This document shows positions 6,084 to 49,326 of a stretch of 64,000 bases of DNA, piece after piece. Source of the stretch: Desulfofarcimen acetoxidans DSM 771 (lineage in GTDB: Bacteria > Bacillota > Desulfotomaculia > Desulfotomaculales > Desulfofarciminaceae); the NCBI RefSeq assembly GCF_000024205.1, contig NC_013216.1, positions 3,472,001-3,536,000 of the forward strand, written 5' to 3'. The position numbers and the translations under genes were made by a program. Position 1 is the stretch's first letter. The number at the start of each line of letters is the position of its first letter. Under the pieces are notes generated by a model. That model did no database searches, was not told the origin of the DNA, and was given only the letters and a program-made list of their open reading frames with translations.

Positions 6084-6731
6084 AATACAATCTAAATATA
6101 TTTACTTATACTACAGAACATTTTGCTTGCATATTAAAAAATCTGCTGCCAGTAATAGTATATTATTTGAGTGAAAAACCATCCGCGCTTCACTTTTCTA
6201 TCCATTAGCTATTTTTGAAAAATCTTCTCTTGCTTTTCAGTTAAACTAAATCTTTTGTTCTTCCTTCTCATAAATCAACTTACTCCCAATAGTCAGAAGT
6301 AATGACCTAAAAAATTCTTGCACCACGATAAATGTATTAATATATTCGGGGAATACATTATAATTAAATTAACAATTCATTTGTTGATTACTTGTCTAAT
6401 ATATTTCTTCTATGGTATAATATGTCATAAACTGCTGTGTTTAATGAAACGAAAAATGCAAAAAATTACTTTTTCGGTATTTATAATATTTCTTCCTGTA
6501 GGTATAAAAAATGCGCGATTTTAGGTATTATTATACAATAATAATAAAATTATGTATAGATAAACATTCAGACAATTTCCTTTCATAATTAAATTAATTT
6601 AAATTTTTCTGTTATATTTTCTAATTATTTTTTATATATTGTCGAAATATAATTTCATTTACTAATTATTATGATAAAATAACTCTTGGCTTAAGTAATA
6701 TCATTTTGACTGAAGGAGCTGGTTTTTCCCT
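6084..6731. other. AT-rich gap without a recognised gene
   Basis: About 650 bp. A 68-codon plus-strand ORF at 6318-6524 lacks a ribosome site and looks like chance AT-rich sequence. The right end should hold the promoter of the next gene, but I cannot place the boxes with confidence. Confidence 0.4.
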
Positions 6732-6968
6732 ATGCCGGAACAATACGGCTACATAGTTTTTCCTTCAACCCACGAAGCTATAAGAACCGAGAAGCTGCTG
6801 CAAAAACACGGCGCAGTCTTTACCATAGTACCCACACCGCGCAGCATCACAACCTCCTGCGGTATTTCCGTTCGTTTTAACCCGTCAGAAGAAAAAATCT
6901 TCAAGCAATTGCTTGAAGACTACGAGGTACAGACAGACGGTATCTACCTGCTGCCGAAAAACCGGTAG
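6732..6968 (+). CDS. DUF3343 family protein (putative Se/S carrier-like)
   Basis: 78 residues. The start EQYGYIVFPSTHEAIRTEKLL, the PTPRSITTSCG segment with the single conserved Cys, and the short C-terminal helix are typical of the DUF3343 family. Members are thiol-bearing small proteins often found near selenium, sulfur or redox genes; the biochemical role is unproven. ATG 6732 follows GAAGGAG. It stands apart from the next genes by about 120 bp and shares their orientation. Confidence 0.85.
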   Translation: MPEQYGYIVFPSTHEAIRTEKLLQKHGAVFTIVPTPRSITTSCGISVRFNPSEEKIFKQLLEDYEVQTDGIYLLPKNR

Positions 6969-7085
6969 ACATGTTGTAAAACAATTCATAATATTACAAA
7001 ATAATAGGCACAACTATATTGAAGCAGGAAGTTGCAACTTAACGGCGAAAACTTTAAGTTATTCAAATAAAAGGAGAGAACCAGC

Positions 7086-7385
7086 GTGACAAATCCGGCT
7101 AAAACCGATGAGAACCAGCGTGTCATAGTAACCGTGCTGGGAGCGGATCGTGTAGGAATTATCGCCGGCGTATCCGGCATACTGGCTGAAAACAATATCA
7201 ACATACTTGATATCAGCCAAACAACACTAAGAGAATTCTTCACCATGATCATGGTAGCGGACATGAAGCAGAGCAAAATCAACCTAAACACATTGAAAGC
7301 AAAACTTGCCGCATTGGGTGAAGAACTGGGAATGCGTATTGACGCCATGCACGAAGACGCCTTCCGTTTTATGCATCGCATATAG
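7086..7385 (+). CDS. ACT domain protein (UPF0237 type)
   Basis: 99 residues forming one ACT fold: [34 protein letters not shown], then [12 protein letters not shown] domains bind small ligands, often amino acids. Proteins of this type almost always precede a DUF711 gene, as here with a 10-nt gap, so the two probably act together. Start is GTG 7086 behind AAAAGGAG. Ligand unknown. Confidence 0.9.
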
Positions 7386-7395
7386 GGGGATAATA

Positions 7396-8754
7396 ATGCT
7401 AACAATACAGGAAGTTATGGAAACCATTCTAATGGTGCAGGAAGAACATTTGGACATACGCACCATCACCATGGGCATCAGCCTGAGGGATTGCGCTGAC
7501 CCCAACCCTAAAGCCGCCCAACAAAAAATTTACGATAAAATCACCCGCCTGGCTGCCAACCTGGTCAAAGCAGGCGAAGACATTGAAAACAACTACGGTA
7601 TACCCATCGTAAACAAAAGAATCTCCGTTACCCCCATCTCCATGGTGGCAGAGAGCAGCACAGCGGAAGATTATGTAGGCTTTGCCGAAGTCATGGAAAA
7701 AGCTGCCGGCACAGTAGGAGTTAATTTTATCGGGGGCTTCTCAGCCCTGGTGCACAAAGGATTTACCAAAGGCGATAAAATACTCCTGGAGTCCATACCG
7801 GAAGCTCTGTCCGTAACAGAAAGAGTTTGTTCCTCCGTCAACCTGGCTACTACCAAGTCAGGCATCAACATGGACGCCGTCTGCCAGATGGGCCAGATCA
7901 TCAAACAAACCGCAGAGAAAACCGCCGACAAAGACGGCCTGGGCTGTGCCAAGCTGGTCGTGTTTGCCAACGTACCTGAGGACAACCCCTTCATGGCCGG
8001 TTCCTTCCACGGAGTCGGCGAACCGGAAGCGGTCATCAACGTAGGAGTCAGCGGCCCCGGTGTAGTCAAATACGCCGTGGAAAAAGCCGGCAACGTTAAT
8101 TTTGGCGAGTTGGCCGAAATAATCAAAAAGACCTCTTTTAAAATCACCCGGATGGGTGAACTGGTAGGGCGCAGGGCCGCCAAAATACTAAACGTGCCCT
8201 TTGGCATCGTGGATCTCTCCCTGGCCCCCACCCCGGCAGTAGGAGACAGCGTAGCGGAAATACTGGAAGCAATGGGCCTGGAAAGATGCGGCACTCACGG
8301 CACCACAGCGGCACTGGCCCTGCTCAATGATGCAGTGAAAAAAGGCGGAGCCATGGCGTCCTCCTACGTAGGAGGCATGTCCGGCGCTTTCATCCCGGTC
8401 AGTGAAGATGCAGGCATGATCCGGGCCGTAGAAGACAAAGCACTCAGCCTGGACAAACTGGAAGCCATGACCTGCGTTTGCTCAGTAGGTCTGGATATGA
8501 TAGCCGTACCCGGAGACACCACAGCCGAAACCATCGCCGGCATTATCGCCGATGAAGCAGCCATAGGCATCTCCAACCAGAAAACCACCGCCGTAAGAAT
8601 CATCCCCGCCCCCGGCAAAAAGGTCGGCGACTACGTGGAATTCGGAGGCTTACTGGGCCGGGCCCCGGTCATGCCGGTCAACCCCTTCTCCTCCTCCCTC
8701 TTCGTACGCCGCGGCGGCCGCATACCGGCACCCATACAGAGTCTGAGAAATTAA
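7396..8754 (+). CDS. DUF711 (PFL, UPF0210) family protein
   Basis: 452 residues, full length for the family. Recognisable parts are the N-terminal [27 protein letters not shown], the GVSGPGVVK turn, and the C-terminal [16 protein letters not shown]. The family is distantly related to glycyl-radical-enzyme folds but its reaction is unknown. ATG 7396 follows a GGGGG ribosome site and fits the family's [11 protein letters not shown] start; an upstream in-frame extension to 7306 overlaps the ACT gene and is unlikely. It is the last recognisable core gene before the accessory region. Confidence 0.9.
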
Positions 8755-16433: not shown

Positions 16434-17876
16434 ATGCGAAAAGCATACGATACATTTCTGTTATCAGAAGTGTCTGCAGGCTTAGCTGCCAAAGCTGGTA
16501 GCTTTGAACCGTATCGTTATGAGTGCGCACATTGCGGAGAAGAAGTTCGCCTGTCCGCAGTGGATAGCACCAGTATGGTTCCACATTTCCGGCATCGGAG
16601 TGGAAATAGTGATGTTGAGTGCGAATATTATCTTGGTCAATACGGGGCATTTAGCACGGACGCCCGTTCGAGGAAGAGCAAAAATGAAAGAGCTGAATTT
16701 TACTTCGACAGTAATACAAAGATGTTTTATCTTGGCTTGAGGTTTAGCGAAGATGAGATATCTGCCTATGAACAGCTTTCTACCATTTTCGAGTTGAGAG
16801 TTGCATCTCAAGCGCAGCCGTTCTACATATTGCGAATAAATGGGAGAAACTTTTCCATTGATACTCAGAGACTGATTCCTCTCGATAAATTCTCTTGCAA
16901 CTATTTTTTGTCAAACACGCTAAATGGCATCAAGAGAAAATATGAGGTGTTCAACAACGTCGCAAACAACGCAGCGACTTTCTTTAAAATGCAAGTGGGT
17001 GATGGTGGCTATCGAGCCAAATTAGTTCGCAGTTCCGTTCTTTATACGAATATCCCTTACTTCATAGTTTTTCAAAGTCAGAGCCCGCATTGGTCGCCAG
17101 TAGATGTTTGTTTGCCAAGCGAAATAAAGGTCGAAAACACTTTCGAATTTGAGACGATGGGGAGAAAATTTATAGGAAAGGTTCTGACCATAACTGCAAA
17201 AACAGCACAAATTGACTCATTATTATCCTCTTGGGGTTATCAGTTGGAAGCCGCTGAAACGCTGACATTGCTTTGGCCGCCAGCAATCCTTTCAGAGGAT
17301 ATATCACTAATTAATGCAGATGCGGCGTATCTTTATTCAACATTCGAGCTGCAGGCACATGGCAATATCAATGTCCATTCAGAGGACATTACGAGGATTA
17401 CTGATGGGGTTTCAAAGGTTGCCGTTAATCCCAGAATCAAAGTTTATAAGAAGAACGCAGAACTGATGCTTGAAACATGTGAGCAAGAAACAGATGCATA
17501 CATCAACTTACCTGTGGCTCGAAGGGCTGAAAAGAACTACCGTGTTACTGACGATGCGTCCTTTATGTTCAATCGTTCTGGAGTTTTGCCGTTGAACAAG
17601 GGTGTAACTGTCCAGATGACTCCTGATAGCGAAGTTAGACATTATACGAATGGGTATTTGGATGGGATAGTTGCTCCGTTAGAACAAATTACGATGTCTG
17701 GAGAATCATTGCTCCGAGATGCTCTTATACATTATAAAAGGACCGAAACGCTCAACTGGGATGATTTCAAGTCGCTTTACCTTAGCCAGACCGCTTTTCA
17801 TTACATCGAAACCTGCGAGAAGACAGGACTAATTAACTCTGCGGCAAAATACTTCATTGAGGAGGGGCGGATATGA
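16434..17876 (+). CDS. CoiA-like zinc-finger protein, first gene of defence-like operon
   Basis: 480 residues. The N-terminus has C31-x2-C34, H51-F-R-H54 and C63, the arrangement found in the CoiA-like zinc-binding domain of competence and nuclease proteins. The remaining 400 residues are mixed alpha/beta and match nothing I recognise; no CoiA nuclease motif is evident. The ORF starts at ATG 16434 behind AAAGGAG. Its end overlaps the next start (ATGA), the first of a series of overlaps down to the helicase, which marks a single translation-coupled operon. A role in binding DNA ends or foreign DNA is inference only. Confidence 0.75.
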   Translation: MRKAYDTFLLSEVSAGLAAKAGSFEPYRYECAHCGEEVRLSAVDSTSMVPHFRHRSGNSDVECEYYLGQYGAFSTDARSRKSKNERAEFYFDSNTKMFYLGLRFSEDEISAYEQLSTIFELRVASQAQPFYILRINGRNFSIDTQRLIPLDKFSCNYFLSNTLNGIKRKYEVFNNVANNAATFFKMQVGDGGYRAKLVRSSVLYTNIPYFIVFQSQSPHWSPVDVCLPSEIKVENTFEFETMGRKFIGKVLTITAKTAQIDSLLSSWGYQLEAAETLTLLWPPAILSEDISLINADAAYLYSTFELQAHGNINVHSEDITRITDGVSKVAVNPRIKVYKKNAELMLETCEQETDAYINLPVARRAEKNYRVTDDASFMFNRSGVLPLNKGVTVQMTPDSEVRHYTNGYLDGIVAPLEQITMSGESLLRDALIHYKRTETLNWDDFKSLYLSQTAFHYIETCEKTGLINSAAKYFIEEGRI

Positions 17877-19459
17877 ACTACCTTCCCACGATGACCGAGG
17901 ACGAAATCCGCTATATTTGTTCAGTTATCCCTCTCCAAGACTCTGTGGGATATTTCAAGTATTATCCAAAAGATTTTGCGAAAGTTATGCCGGGATTTCG
18001 AGCTACAAGCCTAAAAAGTCAAGAGCAGGTTAGCGGTATTTTGTTCCGAAACCGCAACCAGCACTTTATCTCATCATTTATTGAGAAGCACATCAGCCGG
18101 TGGCTTGATGAGATTGGCGCGGCTATTAATGAAAAGACCGAAGAAGGCGAAAGTAAGGAATCTGCATTACTTCAAACTTTGCCTCATTGTTTCTTTGTGG
18201 ACAATATTGGGTTATACTTCAAGTTGACGGGTGAGGAGTATACGGGGGAATTTCTTTCTATGCTCAGCGCAAGCATCAGGTTTATTAAAGATGCCAACAC
18301 AGAATGCGAACGCACTAAATCCAAACTAGACACAAAAACAACCGAAGTCAGTCGTTTGGAAGCGGAACTTGAGCGTGTTCAGACCGAACAAAGCAAAATG
18401 AGCCAAAAGCTGAGTGAGCGCTTAGACGAAATTAAGACACTTAAACGCACTAATGCAGACCTTGAAAAAAGCAAAGGAGTTATCGCCTCGCACGAACAAA
18501 CAATTGGAAGTCTGAAGCAAAAAGCGCAAGAACGGGAGGATTACATACAACAACTGAAGGCTGCATTGTCTGTTGCAAGAAAGGAACAACAGCAGCTTGA
18601 GAAAAAAATCAGAGTAGAAATCGCCAAGCAACAGGAAACGGAGAAATATCGGCAAGATACCGCTCAAAAACCTAAATGTCCTAAAGACCTCGATGAGTTT
18701 AGGGATTATTTGGGATACAATTTTGAAAACATCGGTGTGCCAGCAAATTCGGACTATTATCCGTTGCTCAAAGACTACCTGAGCGAGATATTGTTTCAAG
18801 GAAAACCGATTATTATCAGCAGAAGCACCGGATTGTCCTTAATGAAATGCGTTTCAAACACGCTTGTAAAGACTTCTGTAGTTACAACTTTAGCATTCGA
18901 CGATGATGTCACAGAAAAATTAATAGACGGTTTTTTGTCGCAGGACAAGCGTATAGTCTGCTTAGACAACTTCATTGGGAACTACAATGAAACTACGCTC
19001 ATAACCATTTGTGATAGGCACAGAGATAAGATAATTTTCTTGACTATTGCTTATGATCACACACTCTGCTTCGTTCCAGACGAGTTAATGCGGTATTGCC
19101 ACTATCTAAACCTAAATCGCGTTGAGGCTTTTACAGGCGACACAGAACTGACAGAAGACCCATCTGTTGTGGATGAAGTAGAAAAAGTAGTTACTTCAAT
19201 TGTACCAGATGTTCGTTGGACTGTCGCCTTAAAAGAAATGCTTGAGGAATTTGGGGTGCAGGGTGCTTTGTCCGCATATAAGAGTTCCCTCGTTGCTGAC
19301 GAGTTAAGCTTTTGCCGTCTGTTGGCGTTTGATGTCTTGCCATACTGTACGGATGTTCTTAAAATTGCTCCCTTTAATGTCTCCGAGCGATTGGTTAAAT
19401 ATGCGGGTGATAGCGGCAGATGTCTTTATAAGAATTTGTTCAGGAGGTGGTTCGCGTGA
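17873..19459 (+). CDS. Coiled-coil protein with possible degenerate NTPase domain
   Basis: 528 residues. An N-terminal globular part (1-135) is followed by a long coiled coil (about 140-262; heptads such as VSRLEAELERVQTEQ). The C-terminal part (265-528) has an AAA-like feel: GKPIIISRSTGLSLM where a P-loop would be, and a Walker B-like RIVCLDNF strand. No GxxxxGK[ST] is present, so ATP binding is doubtful. ATG 17873 overlaps the previous stop by 4 nt and TGATG joins it to the next gene. It may scaffold or load the helicase encoded downstream; that is inference. Confidence 0.7.
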   Translation: MNYLPTMTEDEIRYICSVIPLQDSVGYFKYYPKDFAKVMPGFRATSLKSQEQVSGILFRNRNQHFISSFIEKHISRWLDEIGAAINEKTEEGESKESALLQTLPHCFFVDNIGLYFKLTGEEYTGEFLSMLSASIRFIKDANTECERTKSKLDTKTTEVSRLEAELERVQTEQSKMSQKLSERLDEIKTLKRTNADLEKSKGVIASHEQTIGSLKQKAQEREDYIQQLKAALSVARKEQQQLEKKIRVEIAKQQETEKYRQDTAQKPKCPKDLDEFRDYLGYNFENIGVPANSDYYPLLKDYLSEILFQGKPIIISRSTGLSLMKCVSNTLVKTSVVTTLAFDDDVTEKLIDGFLSQDKRIVCLDNFIGNYNETTLITICDRHRDKIIFLTIAYDHTLCFVPDELMRYCHYLNLNRVEAFTGDTELTEDPSVVDEVEKVVTSIVPDVRWTVALKEMLEEFGVQGALSAYKSSLVADELSFCRLLAFDVLPYCTDVLKIAPFNVSERLVKYAGDSGRCLYKNLFRRWFA

Positions 19460-20475
19460 TGAATGATCTGCTGAAAACGATGGCAAACGATATGAATATT
19501 CCCCGTTATCACAATGAGTCAGATGAATCTTTCGTTTATCGCCTCTGCTATTCAGCGTTGGGGCAATGGTGTCTAAGCACGGCGATGAATACGACAGGAG
19601 GAGCCGTTGGTACTACGAAGCACAACCAAACCATTGTGCTTAATAACCTTTTATCACGGTTCACCGAACTGTTTCCGTACATAACCGATAGATTCATTGA
19701 CTCCAGTAATCAGCAGATATCTTTTTTGGTCAGCGTCCGAAGGGCTTATGAGGAAACAGGATACTTATTGACCAATAGTGACAACCACAACCGAATCGCA
19801 AACTATGGCAGAACTATTCGGGTAGGCGATAAGTTTTTATTCTTTGGGCTACCCTGTGAACATTGCGAAGTTAACGGACTTGGGGTGTTTACGAACCCTA
19901 CAGACTACTTGGTTGTTTTGAAGGATTTTCTCGTAAGAGATTCTCTGCCGGGCGAGGCGTACTTCAACTCGCGGTTTGACCCAATTGATTTTTACCAAAG
20001 GGACATTGATTTATCCGAGTTGGAATTTTTCAATCCCAAGTCGAATAATGTACCGTCTATGTCATGGGGTAAAAAACCTGAAACAGATTGTACTGTGGCG
20101 AGGAAAACCGAAACAGGTCCGTTCTATCGGATAATGAAAGTAAATGACGATATACAGTTCGCCGATGAACCGGTTGAACAGCAAAGCGATGTTTTTACAT
20201 CGTATGAATACAGGAGACTGTACTTTGCTCTTAAATTCCATTACGACAATCCTCTGAAGGCAACCATCACGAAACTTGATGAGTTGTATTCTAAAATTCA
20301 CATAGCAGGGCACTTGCCGAATCGCGAATACTACCTGCTGTTACTTTTGTCGTGGCCGGAACGCAATGCATTTGACAAAGTGAACTTTATTATAAGAAAC
20401 GACTTGCTTGCAAGCGTAACTGATGCGCTTGCAGACATTGGGATAGAAATTAAGGGAGGGCAACCAAATGCATAA
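19459..20475 (+). CDS. Unknown protein of defence-like operon
   Basis: 338 residues, unrecognised. The start [37 protein letters not shown] resembles phage and defence proteins that open with a small helical DNA- or partner-binding unit, but I cannot name a family. A central region has a CEHC pair and an LGVFTNP turn. ATG 19459 overlaps the preceding TGA (TGATG) with AGGAGG 9 nt upstream. It overlaps the helicase start by 8 nt, so stoichiometric production with the helicase is likely. Confidence 0.7.
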
Positions 20476-23400
20476 TCCTAACGGGGTACAGGAGTATTAT
20501 CAGGCTATTCGGGATAGGCTGAAGAACTACATCAAGTCCGACTACTTGGCAAACAGCGAAACTCTATTGCTTTATGTCGACGATCTTCTCGGCGAGTTGT
20601 GTTCTGAGTACACGAACATCGCCCGCGAGCCGTATATTGAAACCGCTGCTTCTTACAAGAAAATACAGGACGGAATTCAAAACTCTTCCCGAATCAAGCA
20701 AGGAGTAAAAGAGTCGTTGTTCAAATTGGTAGCCAAAGGCCTCGGCATTTTCTCCGACCCGTTTGAGCATCAGGTAAAGGCACTGGAATATTTCCTTGCT
20801 GGACGAGACCTGTTTGTTTCGACCGGTACTGGCTCTGGTAAGACTGAGTGCTTCCTTTGGCCGATTATTGCAAAGTGTTTCGATGAAGCAAAGAATCATC
20901 CTGCGATCTTTAAGAACGAAGCGGTTCGCACACTTATCATTTACCCAATGAATTCACTGGTTTCAGACCAACTGGCTCGTTTCAGAAAAATTATCGGTAG
21001 CCCGGACTTCAAATATATATTTACGCGCGATACCCACGCATCACGGATACCTCATTTCGGTATGTACACAGGCAGAACTCCGTACTCTGGTGATGCAAAA
21101 AAAGCAAGTAGCCAAGAACTGGCGATAACTTTCCGAGAGAACTACCTAATTGACGAAACTGCCGATGCCTACACTCAAAGAAGGCAAACGAATAATATCA
21201 AAGGACTTAAAAGCATCAGCAAATATCCTGCGCGGTTTGGGGAAGACGGACTTCGTGTCTTTATTGAGAATCTTGAAAAGAACATCCACAGACCGTCACC
21301 ATATGATGCCGAGTTCATTACGCGCTTTGAGATGCAGAATTGTCCGCCTGACATTCTTATTACCAACTACTCAATGTTAGAGTATATGCTTATGCGTCAG
21401 CGTGAAGCTAACATTTGGGATAAAACAAAGGAGTGGCTTGAGACCTCGGATGAGAACAAACTGCTTATTGTTCTTGATGAGGCGCATATGTACCGTGGCT
21501 CTGCCGGAGGGGAAATTGCGCTCCTGCTAGAAAGGCTGTTCTACCGTCTAGGAATTTCCTCAGAAAAGGTTCAGTTCATCCTGACAACTGCGAGTATGCC
21601 CCAGAACGAGCAGACTGCAATTAACGGTTTTTATACCGGACTAACTGGAAAAGTTGCTTCTTCTTGTGAGTTCCTCTTTGGCTCAAAAGAGGAGATTCCT
21701 GACGAACAGGAAATAAGAACGGATATAGAAGCATTAGCCTCGATAGATTCCGACCAAGTCCAAGGAGAAGCAATCACTAAGCGGATTGCCGCTTTTGCAT
21801 CTTCCGTATTTAAGACGACCTTGCCGTCTGACATTAGCCAGGATAGCGCACAAGAGTGGCTATACGACAATCTTCCGAAGTATGAGGCTTTCGTAAAGCT
21901 GAATAGACTCTGCCGTGATGGTGCGAAATCATATAGCGAAATAAAAGAAGTTATCTTTGGGAATGTAGCTACTTCCGAAAAGGCGCTTGATGCCTTGTTA
22001 GTATTGGTTTCACTGGCCGCGAAAGGCGGTAATATTCTGTTCCCTGTCAGGCTTCATATGTTTCTTCGTGGCTTGCAGGGGCTTTATACCTGCTCGAACC
22101 CTAAATGCACCCGTGCGAAACAATCAGAAAGTGAAAAATTGCCGCTTGGGAAAATCATCTCTATTCCGAAGGATAAGTGCGAGTGCGGAGGCAAGATATA
22201 CGAACTCTTCAATCACATAAAATGTGGAGCGTTATATATTCGAGCATTTGTTCAAAAAAACGAGGGTCAGCCATACTGGTACGTCTTCCCGAAAAAGGGT
22301 TTGGATGGGGATGTTAATTCTTTGCAAGAAACATTGCTTTACGTCGTCCCAAAACAATATCAGTGCGGGAAGAATGATAAGATTGGCTCCCTTGACCCAT
22401 TCACAGGTAAACTGTATCTGACCCTGCAGGATGAGGAAACTTTGCTTGATGTTGTCTACTACAATAAAAGTGAAAAAGGTAAAAAGACAGATGCGAAAGG
22501 AATGCCTTTTAACTTTGGTGTATGCCCAAAATGTAAAAAGCCGATGCCGTTAAAAAAACCCGTCGACTTGTCAACCAAAGGGAATATACCGTTTTACAAC
22601 CTGACTAAGTCTCAATTCGAGCTTCAACCACCAAAGTCAGGCCTTATTAACCAAGGTAAAAAGGTATTACTGTTCTCCGATTCGCGCCAAAATGCGGCAA
22701 AACTCGCATTAGACCTTTCAAAATCTTCTGACGCAGATGCGTTTCGGCAGGCTGTAATGCTCGCTTCACTATTGTTAGAGGTGGATGGTAAAGAACACTC
22801 CTTGGCTGATTTGTACCCTGCGTTTCTGGATGCGTGCAATCAGAATAACCTTACTTTCTTTAGCGGAACAAGCAAAGACAAATTCGATGGTGATAAGCGA
22901 AAATTTGCCAAATCTAAAGCAAACGCAGAAAAACGTGGACGAACAATTAACTATTCCTCCTTGCTTGGTGATTACGGTGCATTACCAGACAATTACTATG
23001 AACAACTTTTAACTTTCTTTACTGAAAGTCCTCGTTCATTCAAGGATATTGGAATAGGTTTTTTAGCACCATTATCTACAGTTCTGGATCTTTGTATGGA
23101 ATACTTAGAAGACGATGATATCAGTATCGATAAAGCTAAGCTTTACCAATTGCTGGTTCTGATGTTCTGGGAAGTGATGGATGACAGCGCAGCCTTGGGA
23201 GAAACCATTCAAGACGATGTGCGAAAAGGGCTACCCGGGCGGAGCAAGAGCTCTAATTTTGGACTGAGCTTCGACTTTTTAACAGCATTGGATAAAGGAC
23301 TGCTTCAGCGAATTCAGGAAGTATTGTGCCACGATGCCATAACAACCAGGAAAATATTAGACAAAGTGCGCGACCTATTCTTTGCCTCTTCATCTGCCAA

Positions 23401-25693
23401 TCGCTACTATATTAAATTGAGTGCGGTTAAAATCGAGCTGGCAAGCGAGGATTTTGTATGGTATCGGTGCGTGAAATGCGGAAAGTTGTCTCCGTTTAAA
23501 ATTGGTGACTATTGTGGCGCTTGCTTTGATTCGTCCGATTTAGTTTCCATTGGCGAGGAGGAATTGTCACGCTTTGACTTCTGGCGCATACCTGTTCTAA
23601 ATGCACTTAAAAAGATAGAAAGCATTCACACGATTGATACCGAAGAGCATACGGCACAGCTTTCACACAAAGAGATTCGTAGCGACACATGGAGTCGCAC
23701 GGAAAAATATGAAATGCGCTTCCAAGACATAAACGCTGGAGAACACGGCGAAGATGCGATTGATGTTCTCAGTTGCACAACAACGATGGAAGTTGGTATT
23801 GATATCGGCTCTTTGACTGCGATCGGGCTTCGTAATATCCCGCCCATGAGGGAGAACTATCAGCAACGAGCAGGACGTGCTGGACGTAAGAATGCAGGGA
23901 TATCAACTATCGTGACTTACGCCTCTGGAGGTACGCACGACAGCCACTACTTCCAGCACCCTGATGAAATGATTTCCGGAGCACCGCGTAAGCCGTGGAT
24001 AGACCGCAGCAATCCAAAAATTAAACAACGCCATGTAAATATGCTGACACTAAACGGGTTTATGTCCACGGAAGCTATGAGAACCCAATTTGATGGGATT
24101 GTTGATACAGGGATTATTAAATTCTGCGAATTATATGGTGAAAACTTTATTGAGTTTGCAGAGCAATTTTCTAAAAACTCAGGGCTGTCAACGGCTAAAA
24201 CAATAGAGCATTTCCAAGAAATATGCGGGCTTGTTTTAGCAGAGGGCAAGCGTGACGAGTATATAAATAATGATAAAGAAACGCCTGCGTTTGATATTTT
24301 TTACCGCGAAGGCTTTATTCCGTCTTACTCGTTCCCAAAGAATGTTGTAAGGTTCTTCGTTGAAAAGGAATCCGAGCGCGGCAAAAATTCGCCAAGGGAT
24401 ATTCAGTATGCACCCGAACGTGACATAGCCGTGGCTCTTAGCGAATATGCCCCCGGCCGCTTCGTGACCATCGATAAGAAAATATTTAAGAGCGGTGGGA
24501 TTTACGCAAACCCTCGTCCCCGTGGGTTTGAAACCAATCATGCAGAGTTTTACTTCAAGAACACTGACTACTACAAAGACATCTTTATCTGCTCCGAGTG
24601 TAATTGGTTTGGGCTTCAGGAAGATGCAAGCCTATCTCAATGCCCGTACTGTGGCTCGGAGATTGTGAAAAACAAAATGCTGCGTCCTTGGGGGTTCTCC
24701 CCTGTAAAGGGCGATGAAGTAAAGTTCGAGGATGAGGACGAGCAATACACCTATGCCGAAGCCCCGTACTATTCTTATGTCCCTGAGGATACGAGGATGG
24801 ACAGCTTTGGGCAGAGTAAAATCCGTTTCGCCAATTTGCCCGACCGCAAAGTGCTGACCGTTAATATGGGGAAGAGTAAAAACGGATTCAATATTTGCAA
24901 AAAATGCGGAGGAGCGGAGGTAACTGACGCAAAGGAAGGCGCGACGTATTCGTTTTCTCAGCCTTATCACGATAACCACCCACTCTGCCGACATGAAGGA
25001 ACCGTTGCCCACGGCATTTATCTCGGATATGAGTTTCTTACGGATATGTTTATGCTCGATATATCTTACGATTCAACAAAGTTGGTGGGAAACCGCAGTG
25101 CTGAAGAGAAAAGCATCCTTCGTGCGGCTGTAACTACTTTGCACGAGGCAGTTAAAAAGGCCGTCTCACTCGTTTTGGATATTGACTATAACGAAATCAG
25201 CGGGGGGTGGCGTCCGAGAATCAAGGGAGACGGTAACTCGCACATGGAAATGTTTTTCTATGATAATCTGACAAGTGGTGCTGGGTATTCATCGCTTATT
25301 GGCTCGATTTTGGACGAGGTACTTGAACGGGCGCGCATTATACTGACTGGGTGCGAATGTTCACGTTCCTGTAAGAACTGCTTGGATAATTATTGGAATC
25401 AGCGAAATCATCAATTGTTCGACCGACATCTTGGCTTGCAATTACTTGATTACGCACAATTTGGACAGTTGCCCGATGACTACGAAGTTAGCGAACAAAA
25501 TGAATATTTTCAACCATTGCTGAAACTGATAACCGAGGACGGCGGAGTACCGCCACTCGCATTTGAAGTTATCCCTGCTATGCGGAAGAAACCCGACAGT
25601 ACACGAAGCAAAATGTACCTCAATCCATACGATCTAACGGATTGGCTACCTAATGCATTTATGACATATAGAAATCTGGTGAGTGAGGGATAA
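20468..25693 (+). CDS. Giant DEAH-box helicase with DUF1998-like C-terminus (DruE-like)
   Basis: 1741 residues. Motifs in order: FEHQVKAL (Q-like), GTGSGKTE (Walker A, about 119-126), [27 protein letters not shown] 337-340, TTASMP (motif III), [22 protein letters not shown] and QQRAGRAGR (about 1132-1140). Zinc ribbons interrupt it near 540-590, 685, 1000 and 1375. The C-terminus carries the DUF1998/MZB-like cluster C-E-C-x3-C-x2-C near 1630. Size and domains match the large helicases of Druantia (DruE) more than the split DrmA/DrmB pair of DISARM. It presumably translocates on DNA. The frame is intact, and it overlaps its upstream neighbour. Confidence 0.88.
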
Positions 25694-25694
25694 T

Positions 25695-26537
25695 ATGGCT
25701 AAATCGCTTTCACCGCTTCGTTATCCGGGCGGTAAATCAAAAATTTATGAAAAAGTTAGAAACCTAATCGTTGCCAACGGCTATGAGGGCAGAACATATG
25801 TCGAGCCTTTTGCCGGAGGTTTTGGTATAGGCATTAGTTTGCTATGTGAAGGCGTAGTGAAAGCGGCTATCCTTAATGATTATGATTCTCATATCTATCA
25901 CTTTTGGTACTCCGTGCTTAATGACACAGACAACTTGCTTAGGTTGATTTCGGACACACCAATAACGATTGAAGAGCGCGAGAGACAAAAGCTAAACTAC
26001 CGAGACACAGATGCGGATACGTTGAGCGATGGTTTTGCAACACTGTTTCTGAATCGTGTCAACTTCTCAGGGGTCATAAAGGGCGGACCCATTGGAGGGT
26101 TAGCACAAACAGGGACGTATAAAGTTGATTGCCGTTTCAACAAGGCGGATATCAGTAGCAAAATAGAAACTATCGCCAAACTTAAGAGTAAAATTAAGTT
26201 GTACAACAAGGACGCCGGATATTTAATCAAAATGAACCTGATGAAAATGAAAGCCCGGATGTTTCTGAATATCGACCCTCCCTATGTGATAAAGGGTAGC
26301 CAACTTTACACGAATTTCTTTACCGAAGGAGACCATCTTAATCTTCAACGAGTGATTGTTAAGCACTTGGATGCAGAGTTCCCGTGGATAATCACCTATG
26401 ACGACTGTCTTTTAGTGAGGGATTTGTACCGCCGTTTCCATATGGAGGAATACGGGATTACTCACAACGTCGGCGGTAGTCTACAAGGCAAAGAGATAGT
26501 GATAACGAATCTACCGATTGATAGATTCAAGTGGTAG
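25695..26537 (+). CDS. D12-class (Dam-like) adenine-N6 DNA methyltransferase
   Basis: 280 residues. Motif X-like LRYPGGKSKI at the start, AdoMet-binding YVEPFAGGFGIG (about 35-46) and catalytic DPPY (194-197) identify a class D12 m6A methyltransferase. Recognition sequence cannot be read. ATG 25695 stands one base after the helicase stop. In an operon with a helicase it could mark self DNA, as methylases do in DISARM and restriction systems. No restriction endonuclease domain is recognised in its neighbours. Confidence 0.9.
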   Translation: MAKSLSPLRYPGGKSKIYEKVRNLIVANGYEGRTYVEPFAGGFGIGISLLCEGVVKAAILNDYDSHIYHFWYSVLNDTDNLLRLISDTPITIEERERQKLNYRDTDADTLSDGFATLFLNRVNFSGVIKGGPIGGLAQTGTYKVDCRFNKADISSKIETIAKLKSKIKLYNKDAGYLIKMNLMKMKARMFLNIDPPYVIKGSQLYTNFFTEGDHLNLQRVIVKHLDAEFPWIITYDDCLLVRDLYRRFHMEEYGITHNVGGSLQGKEIVITNLPIDRFKW

Positions 26538-44401: not shown

Positions 44402-45670
44402 TTAATCTGAAAAATCGAAGACTAGATTTCCGATTTTAACTTCATCTCCCTCTTTAGCCCCTGCCTGCCGCAGAGCCTTATCCAATCCCATCAGGCTCAT
44501 AATCTGCTGCAGCCTGGTCACTGCGTCTTCATTTTCCATGTCAGTCATAGCCACATGCCGCTCAATTTCCTGGCCTGTCACCACAAACATGCCGTCTTCC
44601 CGGATGATTTCAAAACGGTCCCTGTTTTCAAAACGGAAGGTTTTTTCCTCTTCCGCTTGGTGCAGCACTTCTCTGGGAATGGCCGGGAGCATTTCCGCCA
44701 CCCGATAAACTAATCGATCCAGGCCCTCTCCGGTTACTGCGGAAATAGGAAATATTTCATAACTACCGCTGAAGGCGTCTTTAAAGGCATCGAGGTTTTT
44801 TGCAGCATCAGGCAGATCCATTTTATTGGCTGCCACCAGCTGGGGACGACGGGCAAGCTTTTCATTATACAATCTCAATTCTCTGTTAATAATCCTAAAG
44901 TCCTCCAAGGGATCTCTGCCCTCGGAGCCCGACATATCCAGAACATGGATAATCAGTCTAGTGCGCTCAAGATGTCGCAGAAATTCATGTCCCAGTCCTA
45001 AACCTGTATGGGCTCCCTCAATTAGTCCGGGAATATCGGCCATGACAAAACTTTCTCCCTCTCTAACCCGTACGACCCCTAAATTGGGCACCAGGGTGGT
45101 GAAAGGGTAATCGGCAATTTTAGGCTTGGCTGCGGAAACTCTCGATATGACAGTAGATTTTCCGGCATTGGGAAAACCCGCCAGGCCGACATCGGCCAGC
45201 AATTTCAATTCCAGCCTGAGCCAACGCTCCTGGCCCGGCTCACCCTTTTCATAAGCAGTGGGGACCTTGTTATTGGGCGTAGCAAAACGGGCGTTGCCTC
45301 GTCCGCCACGACCGCCTCTGGCCACCACAACTTTCTGGCCATGTTCCACAACATCAGCCACAAGCTCCATAGTGTCGGCGTTATATATTACCGTACCGAC
45401 AGGCACACGTAGAGTGCGATCCTCGCCGGATCGACCGGTCATGTCTTTACCCTGGCCGTGTTCACCCCTGTTGCCTTTATAGTGGCTATGGTAGCGAAAA
45501 TCCACCAGAGTATTGAGGCCGCTGTCCCCCACAAAAATGATACTGCCGCCACGCCCGCCGTCCCCGCCGGAGGGACCGCCTTCCGGCACATACTTCTCAC
45601 GGCGGAAAGCCACACAACCGCTGCCGCCGTCCCCGCCCTTTACATAAATCTTAGCCCGATCATAAAACAT
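44402..45670 (-). CDS. obgE: GTPase ObgE/CgtA
   Basis: 422 residues: the glycine-rich Obg fold (FYDRAKIYVKGGDGGSG), the G domain (G1 GFPNAGKST, G3 DIPGLIEGAH, G4 NKMD) and a C-terminal OCT domain. It is an essential ribosome-assembly GTPase. ATG 45670 gives the family's normal start and has GGGTGA upstream; the ORF extends to GTG 45679. It overlaps or abuts the Spo0B-like gene as in Bacillus. Confidence 0.97.
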   Translation of the reverse strand: MFYDRAKIYVKGGDGGSGCVAFRREKYVPEGGPSGGDGGRGGSIIFVGDSGLNTLVDFRYHSHYKGNRGEHGQGKDMTGRSGEDRTLRVPVGTVIYNADTMELVADVVEHGQKVVVARGGRGGRGNARFATPNNKVPTAYEKGEPGQERWLRLELKLLADVGLAGFPNAGKSTVISRVSAAKPKIADYPFTTLVPNLGVVRVREGESFVMADIPGLIEGAHTGLGLGHEFLRHLERTRLIIHVLDMSGSEGRDPLEDFRIINRELRLYNEKLARRPQLVAANKMDLPDAAKNLDAFKDAFSGSYEIFPISAVTGEGLDRLVYRVAEMLPAIPREVLHQAEEEKTFRFENRDRFEIIREDGMFVVTGQEIERHVAMTDMENEDAVTRLQQIMSLMGLDKALRQAGAKEGDEVKIGNLVFDFSD

Positions 45671-45675
45671 CAGCT

Positions 45676-46263
45676 TCACCCATTCATTTTATTTATATCA
45701 ACTTTTCTAAAAATTAAAGCCAGCTCCAATGTATCATTAAGATTAGTTATTTCCAGTCTGCCGTTATCTAAACCCATGTTAACTTTTGCAATTTGCTGCA
45801 ATTCCTCAAATATTTGTTCAGTGGCCGCCGGGATTTCGTCCGGAATTTTAAGCTGAAGGCGGCAGATATAATTGTTTTTGAGCCTCTCCATAATCAAAGT
45901 GACAGTAGACACTTCAGCAGCGGCAGCTGCCAGGTCAAAAATTATTTTTTGCATATGTATCAGCATATCGGCCAACATTTCGGCCGGCAAAACTGTATCG
46001 CCAAGCTCGTCCTCCAATCTGTATTCAACCTGAACCTGCTGCTCAAAAGCCAGATTATGCCCGATCATTAACGCCGCGGAAATTTCCGGAATCTTAATCC
46101 GGTTAACTAAACTCATTAACCCCATATTCATGCATACTTCACCTATATACTCGTTTACACGGTCGATTTTGCCCAGCTGCACCAATCCTGAAATAACTTG
46201 CAGGTGATTAAGAAAATCATGCCGCTGAGCCTGGATTACTTTAAGCAAATCTTTTATCTGCAC
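45676..46263 (-). CDS. Spo0B-like phosphotransferase / sensor kinase fragment
   Basis: About 195 residues. The sequence QAQRHDFLNHLQVISGLVQLGK contains the His of the Spo0B-type dimerisation helix, followed by a degenerate GHKL-like half lacking ATP-binding boxes. In Bacillus, Spo0B relays phosphate from Spo0F to Spo0A and lies beside obg, as here. GTG 46263 was chosen after GAAAGGCGG; the longer ORF start lacks a site. A function in the phosphorelay is inferred. Confidence 0.78.
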   Translation of the reverse strand: MQIKDLLKVIQAQRHDFLNHLQVISGLVQLGKIDRVNEYIGEVCMNMGLMSLVNRIKIPEISAALMIGHNLAFEQQVQVEYRLEDELGDTVLPAEMLADMLIHMQKIIFDLAAAAAEVSTVTLIMERLKNNYICRLQLKIPDEIPAATEQIFEELQQIAKVNMGLDNGRLEITNLNDTLELALIFRKVDINKMNG

Positions 46264-46303
46264 AAAAAATAACCGCCTTTCAAAGTTGGAATAGGTCTGT
46301 AGT

Positions 46304-46334
46304 AAAAAAACCAACCTCTCTTAAGGAGGTTGGC
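46304..46334 (-). terminator. Intrinsic terminator after rpmA
   Basis: On the minus strand CCAACCTC pairs with GAGGTTGG (46311-46318 with 46326-46333), followed by TTTTTTT. It separates the rplU-rpmA unit from the Spo0B-like gene. Confidence 0.88.
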
Positions 46335-46341
46335 TAAGAAT

Positions 46342-46608
46342 TTAAACAGCGGCTTCCGGTATAATAATAGAAACCTGCTTTTTGTCGCGACCTTTACGCT
46401 CAAAGGCTACAAAACCGTCAGCAGTGGCAAACAGAGTGTCATCGCCACCTCTGCCGACATTGCGCCCAGGATGAATCTTAGTTCCTCTTTGACGAACAAT
46501 AATACTTCCGGCAGTCACTAATTGACCGTCACCACACTTTACGCCCAGCATTTTAGGCTTGGAATCCCGGCCGTTACGTGAACTGCCTACACCTTTCTTA
46601 TGAGCCAA
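46342..46608 (-). CDS. rpmA: Ribosomal protein L27
   Basis: 88 residues beginning [16 protein letters not shown] at TTG 46608, 6 nt after GGGGAGGTG. This form has no N-terminal extension of the MLxLxLQFFA type that many Firmicutes cleave with the Prp protease. No prp (ysxB) gene lies between rplU and rpmA, only 68 bp, which agrees with the absence of the extension. Confidence 0.95.
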
Positions 46609-46676
46609 AAGACTCACCTCCCCATCGAAATTAAACTATAAGGAAAATCAGTTATATTTACGAACCTATGAACTTG

Positions 46677-46988
46677 CTAGGCCAGTATTTTCTCTACTGT
46701 AACCTGGGTAAAGGGCTGACGGTGACCTTTCTTACGGCGGTAATTTTTCTTGGACTTATACTTAAAAACTATGATTTTTTTGCCTTTGCCCTGGCGAACT
46801 ACGTTGAGAACTACCTTTGCACCGGCTACAAAAGGGGAACCAACGGTAAGCTGCCCGTCCTTCTCCACAGCCAGTACTTTTTCAATTTCCACTTTCTCGC
46901 CGTCTTCAGCAGTAAGTTTTTCAATGTACAGGGTATCGCCTTCCTGCACCTTAAACTGTTTGCCGCCTGTTTCAATAATAGCGTACAA
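46677..46988 (-). CDS. rplU: Ribosomal protein L21
   Basis: 103 residues, starting [18 protein letters not shown] and ending [14 protein letters not shown], the normal length. The start is TTG 46988 with GGGGGT 8 nt upstream; the alternative ATG 47003 has no ribosome site. It heads the rplU-rpmA unit and has a 5' leader of about 100 nt that may contain an L21 leader element. Confidence 0.95.
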
Positions 46989-47093
46989 ATTTTCTACCCC
47001 CATTTTTTAGGACTCGCCGGCAATAAGGTAGGGATATCCCTTTTAAAACCCGATCCGAGCGGTAGCTAGGTTACTGCTAACCTACATCTCATT

Positions 47094-47122: not shown

Positions 47123-47209
47123 GTTAAGTTTGATGAATAAAGTTCCCTCTTTAACGGGAATTCTAACTATGAAACAGATTCCAGCAAATTTAATGAAGGA
47201 GGATTGATT

Positions 47210-47644
47210 ATGGCACAATCACTTCAGGAAATTATGAGCAAAAATGTTGCAACCATTACGCCTCAGCAGACCGTTGCGGAAGCGGCGCAGCTTATGAGCC
47301 AGCACAACATCGGTTCTTTACCCGTGGTAGAAAACGGCCAGTGTGTGGGAATGTTAACTGACAGAGATATTACTCTCAGAGCAGCCGCCAAAGGTGCCAA
47401 TGCCGCAACTACCAAGGTAGGAGCAGTCATGACCAAGGAAGTTATAACGGCTGCACCGCAAATGGACGTGAATGAAGCTTCCAAGTTAATGGCAGATAAA
47501 CAAATTCGCCGTTTGCCTGTTGTAGAGAATAACCAGGTGACCGGTATAGTGGCCATTGGAGACATAGCCGCACAGAGTATTTATCAGGATGAAGCGGGCG
47601 AAGCGCTTTCTGATATTTCGAAATCTCCCGCAACCTTGTCTTAA
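47210..47644 (+). CDS. Tandem CBS-domain protein
   Basis: 144 residues with two CBS domains: IMSKNVATITPQQTVAEAAQLM...DRDITLRAAA and VMTKEVITAAPQMDVNEASKLM...AIGDIAAQ. Such stand-alone pairs bind adenine nucleotides as energy sensors and resemble the Bacillus YhcV/YkuL type. ATG 47210 follows GAAGGAGG. It is divergent from rplU and closed by a bidirectional terminator. Confidence 0.9.
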   Translation: MAQSLQEIMSKNVATITPQQTVAEAAQLMSQHNIGSLPVVENGQCVGMLTDRDITLRAAAKGANAATTKVGAVMTKEVITAAPQMDVNEASKLMADKQIRRLPVVENNQVTGIVAIGDIAAQSIYQDEAGEALSDISKSPATLS

Positions 47645-48394: not shown

Positions 48395-48699
48395 TGGGAA
48401 GCCTCCTTATTAGATAATAATGACTGCAAACTGAAAATGCTCTACCAACTAATTTTCTAATTTCACGGCTAGTACCCATGCATTTGATATCATAGCACAG
48501 CGGCCTGATTATGGCAACTGTAAAGCATTACTAAACAACTTACCCTGAGAGAACAACAGTGTGCAGCTGAAGATTATTTTAAAATATCAGTGTATTCTAA
48601 AACATTGTTTTAATTCTTGCAGGTACTATTTTACGTTTTTCGTGGTACAATTGACTTATTATTTACTTCTCATTATAAGTATAAACAGAGGTTGGTTGA
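48395..48699. other. Intergenic stretch, divergent promoters expected
   Basis: About 305 bp between two divergent genes. No ORF or hairpin stands out; a TACAAT box near 48642 may belong to the PAP2 gene, but no good -35 box is in register. Confidence 0.35.
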
Positions 48700-49326
48700 A
48701 TGATTTCTTCCTTAAATAAACTGCTGGAATTGGACAGCCTGCTTTTGGAGCATGTTGTTTATTTTGAAAGAATAAGCATACTGGATCACCTGCTGCCATG
48801 GATCAACTGCCTGGCTCAGGGCGGGTTAATCTGGCTGCTATTAATGCTGTACTTGGCGGCTTTTCACAGCTTAAAAGGACGCAAAATTTTTTTTCTGGGC
48901 AGTATATCCATGCTTCTGGCCTTTGCTTTCTCCCAGGGGTTAAATTATCTTGTCCACAGACCCAGGCCATTTAATGCCATCAGCGATGTTTTACCCCTGG
49001 CAAACCTGCTGGCAGACAAACCTGCAGGATATTCCTTCCCTTCCCAGCAAACAGCCTTGGCCTTTGCTGCCGTAACTGTTTTGCTGTCTAACTGTGAAAA
49101 AAAAATTTATAAAATCTTTGTTTTTCTGCTGGCTGCTCTGATTGGCTATTCAAGGGTTTATGCCGGCTTATGTTACCCCCTGGATGTTTTGGGAAGCGCC
49201 GTGCTGGGAAGCTTATGTGCCAGGTATGTAATGGCGAAGATGAGTAGAATCAGAAGAAGAACACGTAAAAAACGCACTTATATTGTTAGAAAAAGCAACC
49301 GGCAAAAACTGACCGAATACAATTAA
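48700..49326 (+). CDS. PAP2-like membrane protein lacking catalytic histidines
   Basis: 208 residues with five to six membrane helices and the PAP2 layout: VHRPRPF (motif 1), SFPSQQTALAF (motif 2, normally PSGH) and SRVYAGLCYPLDVLG (motif 3, normally SRxYxGxHxxxDVLxG). The His of motif 2 is Gln and the nucleophilic His of motif 3 is Cys; the Lys of motif 1 is also absent. It ends in a very basic tail (RRRTRKKRTYIVRK). Fold assignment is firm, but phosphatase activity is doubtful. Confidence 0.85.
   Translation: MISSLNKLLELDSLLLEHVVYFERISILDHLLPWINCLAQGGLIWLLLMLYLAAFHSLKGRKIFFLGSISMLLAFAFSQGLNYLVHRPRPFNAISDVLPLANLLADKPAGYSFPSQQTALAFAAVTVLLSNCEKKIYKIFVFLLAALIGYSRVYAGLCYPLDVLGSAVLGSLCARYVMAKMSRIRRRTRKKRTYIVRKSNRQKLTEYN

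Follow-up and report, generated by a model that had tools for sequence, protein, structure and literature searches.

Members of the PAP2 family share the published motif KX6RP---PSGH---SRX5HX3D (PMC6581854), and the effect of losing parts of it has been reported for bacterial enzymes. In Escherichia coli PgpB, replacement of the nucleophilic histidine (H207A) left no detectable activity, yet the Tm in phosphate rose by 17.1 °C, a gain attributed to phosphate lodging between R104, S161 and R201; H163A, in turn, kept 27% of the C55-PP activity, and G162A and G162D had activity cut or abolished, a side chain at that position being proposed to block the pocket (PMC7413402). In LpxE from Aquifex aeolicus, K73, R80 and R137 hold a sulfate, and a natural Asp takes the place of His at motif 2 (PMC6581854). 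Catalytically inactive six-helix PAP2 relatives are described in vertebrates, namely PLPPR/PRG, which are regulators (PMC9520309), and PLPP7/NET39 (PMC7564803). Moreover, fusions of DedA and PAP2 domains are already in print, where they are read as a phosphatase plus a flippase (PMC9876793, PMC10127716). In the titles and abstracts retrieved by a literature search that included few subscription papers, no bacterial PAP2 pseudophosphatase was described, dead DedA-PAP2 fusions included.

The window analyzed here is a stretch of 64,000 nucleotides from the genome of Desulfofarcimen acetoxidans DSM 771 (G000), and the features relevant to its PAP2 gene are collected in Table 1. The encoded protein belongs to Pfam PAP2 (PF01569; 66.6 bits vs. 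a cut-off of 27.2, residues 69-183); its Pfam matches were to PAP2 only, and it has no fused DedA (VTT) domain. Its scores were far below the cut-offs of the NCBIfam equivalogs for BcrC-like/SepP-type undecaprenyl diphosphatases (58.5 vs. 250 for NF047884 and 40.9 vs. 229 for NF008813), while the closest solved structure by sequence was that of LpxE (6ebu, E 4e-14). AlphaFold run on the single sequence gave a poor model (mean pLDDT 56), and the fold and membrane topology were inferred. The replaced sites are encoded by AAT (N82), CAG-CAA (Q116-Q117) and TGT (C158). The putative promoter hexamers were not listed by the promoter scan, the rule of which requires T as the last base of the second hexamer. 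Elsewhere in the window, positions 16434-26537 contain a series of long ORFs that could be a defence island; by eye, they include a 1741-aa helicase-like protein and a DNA adenine methylase-like protein.

Table 1. Position of the PAP2 gene, its motifs and neighboring synteny markers in the window.
Feature	Position	Strand	Evidence and remarks
PAP2-family membrane protein, both catalytic histidines replaced	48700..49326	+	ORF, ATG start, 208 aa
Motif 1, residues 82-90, N-YLVHRP-RP	48943..48969	+	Asn82 for Lys; Arg87, Arg89, Pro90 kept
Motif 2, residues 114-117, PSQQ for PSGH	49039..49050	+	Ser115 kept; Gln116 for Gly, Gln117 for His
Motif 3, residues 151-162, SR-VYAGL-C-YPL-D	49150..49185	+	Arg152, Asp162 kept; Cys158 for nucleophilic His
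Basic C-terminal tail, approximately residues 176-208	49225..49323	+	Sequence; cytoplasmic side predicted by analogy with family topology
Possible promoter TTGACT-17-TATAAG and AGAGG ribosome site	48651..48691	+	By eye; weak
Two-CBS-domain protein upstream of PAP2 gene	47204..47644	+	Pfam CBS; synteny marker
Block of rplU (L21), rpmA (L27, by eye), spo0B-like and obg	44402..47003	-	Pfam L21, SPOB_a, GTP1_OBG; synteny marker

The family was sampled with two genomes, that of the window and one from a second genus (G001). The orthologue in the latter (L004; 194 aa, 51% identical over 193 aligned residues) reads IKILVDRPRP at motif 1, PSVQ at motif 2 and SRIYAGISYPLD at motif 3, and its C-terminal tail is also basic, although shorter than that of the window protein. 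Both histidines are absent at these syntenic loci in both family genomes (2/2), with Gln/Gln at motif 2 and Cys/Ser at the nucleophile. Motif 1 of the enzymes (KX6RP) is thus intact in the orthologue and departed from in the window protein (Asn82), motif 2 (PSGH) is found in neither (PSQQ and PSVQ), and motif 3 (SRX5HX3D) becomes SRX5CX3D in the window protein and SRX5SX3D in the orthologue. Comparison with the published motif bore out the first-pass annotation as to PSQQ, C158, the lost Lys and the retained arginines and Asp (R89, R152, D162), to which S115 can be added; the loss of Lys, however, is private to the window protein, the orthologue retaining it. As for the conservation of the replacing Gln and Cys, Q117 is kept in the orthologue but C158 is Ser there. 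A CBS-domain gene shares the strand of the PAP2 gene in both genomes, with one opposite-strand gene in between, and the L21-L27-spo0B-obg block is found near the orthologue also. The PAP2 gene itself is solitary: in neither genome is it joined in an operon to undecaprenyl genes, and no operon partner hints at the ligand. In G001, two closely similar hybrid-cluster-like genes (Hcp, by eye) flank the orthologue region (L132:1173-2531 and 6274-7566).

The residues kept and lost were compared with those of canonical relatives. Twelve columns were conserved in at least 95% of 41 canonical rows (R87, R89, P90, S112, F113, P114, S115, H117, R152, G156, H158 and D162), and the window protein and the orthologue each retain 10 of them, H117 and H158 being the only losses. 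Within a closer set of 27 canonical rows, 29 columns reached the same level, with 21 kept in the window protein and 23 in the orthologue; G166, which is Gly in all 27 rows, is Ser in the window protein. The motif-2 Gly is Gln in the window protein and Val in the orthologue, and canonical relatives with both histidines carry A, D, E, N or S at that position. Differences between the two genes at the three codon positions were 0.39/0.23/0.66, and the dN of the pair was 0.40, compared with 0.46 for the Spo0B neighbour and 0.18 for the CBS neighbour; dS was saturated, hence dN/dS is not given. Judging from the codon-position bias and from a dN below that of Spo0B, the gene is under constraint, and the pattern of kept and lost columns looks like a targeted loss of the histidines rather than general decay.

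The double loss is rare, since both histidines are kept in 89 of the 91 distinct PAP2 frames that cover both sites, in a count limited to rows found with the window protein or with profile A1 and leaving out more divergent PAP2s, such as a 523-aa protein of the window genome (L002). The only exceptions were the window protein and its orthologue. These frames come from 93 distinct aligned rows, obtained from searches of 113 genomes (the same for the order and class searches), from the other searches and from follow-up fetches; one of the rows (L065) belongs to a genome that is not of the class. Of 90 loci sampled across the phylum (30 given by the search and 60 picked from its list with emphasis on low scores), 88 had both histidines, L190 was interrupted by stops, and L204 had neither. 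The sole further match below 1e-30 of a two-sequence profile against 398 genomes of the phylum was L065, which keeps both histidines. In addition, tblastn found no relatives in genome contigs (two scans) or viral contigs, and a plasmid collection yielded four distant matches, annotated as PAP2 phosphatases.

In a 43-row tree and again in a 60-row tree, the window protein and its orthologue formed one clade (100/100), which in the former was nested within canonical bacterial PAP2s. Nearest to the pair were L014, L017 and L022, all canonical rows (support of 89/81 in the 43-row tree and 98/87 in the 60-row tree) with no DedA gene in the stretch fetched; most other close canonical relatives adjoin one. 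In two of these nearest relatives, a small Cys-rich membrane protein of approximately 90-100 aa precedes the PAP2 (L014:368-670, L017:1128-1403). Given these nearest rows, there was no support for an origin from L033, the DedA-linked canonical PAP2 of the family itself and the second PAP2 of G001. L033 has all three motifs intact and adjoins a DedA gene. A DedA locus of the window genome (L135/L142) has flanks that look as in G001, but the canonical PAP2 is missing and a universal-stress-protein-like gene (by eye) stands in its place. The only other PAP2 match of the window genome is the 523-aa protein (L002:1420-2991, minus strand), which contains PSGH as well as a motif-3 His and is, we assume, reminiscent of vanadium haloperoxidase-type PAP2s. 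In the same genome there are two genes for BacA/UppP and four of the DedA type; with two BacA/UppP genes, carrier-lipid dephosphorylation has other providers, so that the window protein need not be an enzyme.

The phylum-sample locus without both histidines (L204/L233, genome G190, from another family of the phylum) led to a second dead lineage. It encodes a protein of 424 aa (L233:1170-2441, minus strand) with DedA (VTT) and PAP2 domains, whose PAP2 motifs read PSGS and CRVYNMLNYPSD. Among relatives of this genome, 20 of 61 genomes matched, and a PAP2 row was obtained from 12 of the 20 matched loci; of the others, seven match the DedA part only and one (L251) is a full-length match with no PAP2 row. 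Both histidines are absent in nine of the 12 fusions with a recognisable PAP2 half (L234-L242, from other families of the phylum) and kept in L243, L244 and L247. In the nine dead fusions the nucleophile site holds Ser in eight cases and Asn in one, and motif 2 has T, F or S. VTT and PAP2 were both found by Pfam in the two further members scanned (L236 and L239), and L239 reads SRIYAGISYP, like the orthologue. Like the window protein, the dead fusions have lost both histidines and kept the binding residues, their nucleophile being mostly Ser; unlike it, they have a covalently joined DedA domain and a separate origin. They were placed apart from the window pair in the 60-row tree, and shared ancestry was ruled out by the AU test, a single clade of 11 being rejected (p-AU 5.17e-5). 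Across the 11 aligned dead PAP2s, the invariant columns were D12, R87, R89, F113, P114, S115, R152, Y159, P160, D162 and G170, and the nucleophile was substituted by Ser in nine, Cys in one and Asn in one. Read from this alignment, the predicted phosphate-binding set survives and the catalytic set is lost. The DedA protein at L251 (L251:1471-2736, minus strand) has a C-terminal half that by eye resembles a far more eroded PAP2 (SRVSAGFRPSE), which suggests a gradient of decay among the fusions.

By motif position, R104, S161 and R201 of PgpB correspond to R89, S115 and R152 of the window protein. The nucleophile would be the decisive loss, and one whose removal leaves the phosphate clamp in place, because in the data reported for PgpB H207A is dead yet stabilised by phosphate and H163A is partly active, and because LpxE has Asp at motif 2 (PMC7413402, PMC6581854). 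With Cys (in the orthologue, Ser) in place of the nucleophilic His, and Gln in place of the other catalytic one, no phospho-histidine intermediate would form, and the residues present make it very probable that the window protein has lost its activity. The phosphate group could still be held by R89, R152, the helix cap at Ser115 and D162. The protein would then capture a lipid (pyro)phosphate and not turn it over, the most plausible ligand being undecaprenyl phosphate or pyrophosphate, and may take part in the recycling of carrier lipids as a binding partner or a regulator. The preference for the undecaprenyl carrier as ligand comes from close relatives that adjoin DedA genes and from an independent dead lineage fused to DedA. 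Taken together, we lean towards a conserved non-catalytic PAP2 whose ligand is a lipid (pyro)phosphate, probably one belonging to the undecaprenyl carrier cycle; this ligand and a regulatory role are proposed with less assurance than the loss of activity. The first-pass annotation had likewise suggested a binder of lipid pyrophosphate that does not hydrolyse it; the loss of catalysis with the phosphate-binding residues retained, in the orthologue as well, agrees with that suggestion, while binding of lipid pyrophosphate, and the role as sensor, transporter or regulator offered with it, stay at the level of a proposal. Against binding, Lys82 and the motif-2 Gly are gone from the window protein, and by analogy with the impaired PgpB Gly mutants its phosphate binding could be impaired, although canonical relatives with both histidines also have other residues at the Gly position.

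The same losses, together with that of G166 (Ser), would fit a structural or protein-binding remnant without ligand, or a gene in slow decay, a reading that we regard as unlikely. Conservation of the stand-alone form rests on two genomes, the only ones to carry it, and the far more eroded fusion L251 shows that erosion happens. A remnant would nevertheless sit poorly with an intact frame, with a codon-position bias typical of constraint, and with 10 of 12 near-invariant columns kept in both genera, including R89, S115, R152 and D162.

It is rather improbable that the window protein is still an enzyme, in which Cys158 (Ser in the orthologue) would serve as nucleophile through a phospho-Cys or phospho-Ser intermediate, assisted by D162 or another residue. 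Loss of the motif-2 His alone can be tolerated, as reported for PgpB H163A (PMC7413402) and for the active Aquifex LpxE with its Asp (PMC6581854), but loss of the nucleophile abolishes the activity of PgpB (H207A; PMC7413402). Cys or Ser does occupy the nucleophile site in 10 of the 11 aligned dead PAP2s; however, the orthologues differ there, one fusion has Asn, and motif 2 varies freely among the fusions (T, F, S), unlike a working active site. The window protein also lacks CX5R, the signature motif of Cys phosphatases. The proposal of Cys158 as a nucleophile, made in the first reading of the sequence, was therefore weakened by the Ser of the orthologue, by the motif-2 acid/base gone in both proteins and by the missing CX5R, and gained slightly from Ser being commonest in the fusions (8/9).

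Still another reading is that of a transporter or scramblase, in which the PAP2 fold would carry a lipid phosphate, that of undecaprenol or a different one, from one side of the membrane to the other, hydrolysis having been lost. The independent dead clade fused to DedA flippase domains is in line with it, as is the survival in the window genome of a DedA gene whose adjacent canonical PAP2 is gone. To our knowledge, no PAP2 protein is known to transport, and four DedA-type genes remain in the window genome. The known flippases, as given in the literature consulted, are DedA and DUF368 (PMC12826051), and the chance that the window protein is a transporter is judged slim. Finally, a sequencing error or a recent point mutation in one strain, which orthologues keeping both histidines would have indicated, can be discarded, since TGT differs from the His codons (CAT/CAC) at two positions at least, several codon changes are needed, and the orthologue has neither histidine.

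Beyond the favoured reading of the window protein as a non-catalytic binder, a more general and tentative proposal is that the PAP2 fold may have been turned at least twice into a bacterial carrier-lipid receptor, by a change of the nucleophilic His to a small Ser or Cys with the clamp kept. Undecaprenyl (pyro)phosphate in the outer leaflet might be the ligand of such a receptor, which could signal how much of it is present or else pass it on to a flippase. The stand-alone form would be represented by the window protein and the joined form by the DedA fusions. Phosphatase is the routine annotation of PAP2 proteins, and dead sites with the clamp kept in two independent lineages imply that some of these annotations are probably wrong. 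The dead PAP2s further hint that the recycling of the cell-wall carrier involves a module for binding lipid phosphates.

With respect to known systems, the window protein resembles the BcrC/PgpB/LpxE-type bacterial PAP2 phosphatases (PF01569) in its fold family, as judged by sequence, in its length and in the Arg, Ser and Asp residues it has retained, but differs from them in lacking both catalytic histidines and the Lys. Aquifex LpxE (6ebu) resembles it in the absence of the motif-2 His (Asp), yet retains the nucleophilic H143 and is active. The loss of catalytic residues that characterizes the PLPPR-type pseudophosphatases is seen in the window protein also; according to the descriptions of PLPPRs, however, their phosphate-binding residues are severely disturbed, whereas the window protein keeps them.
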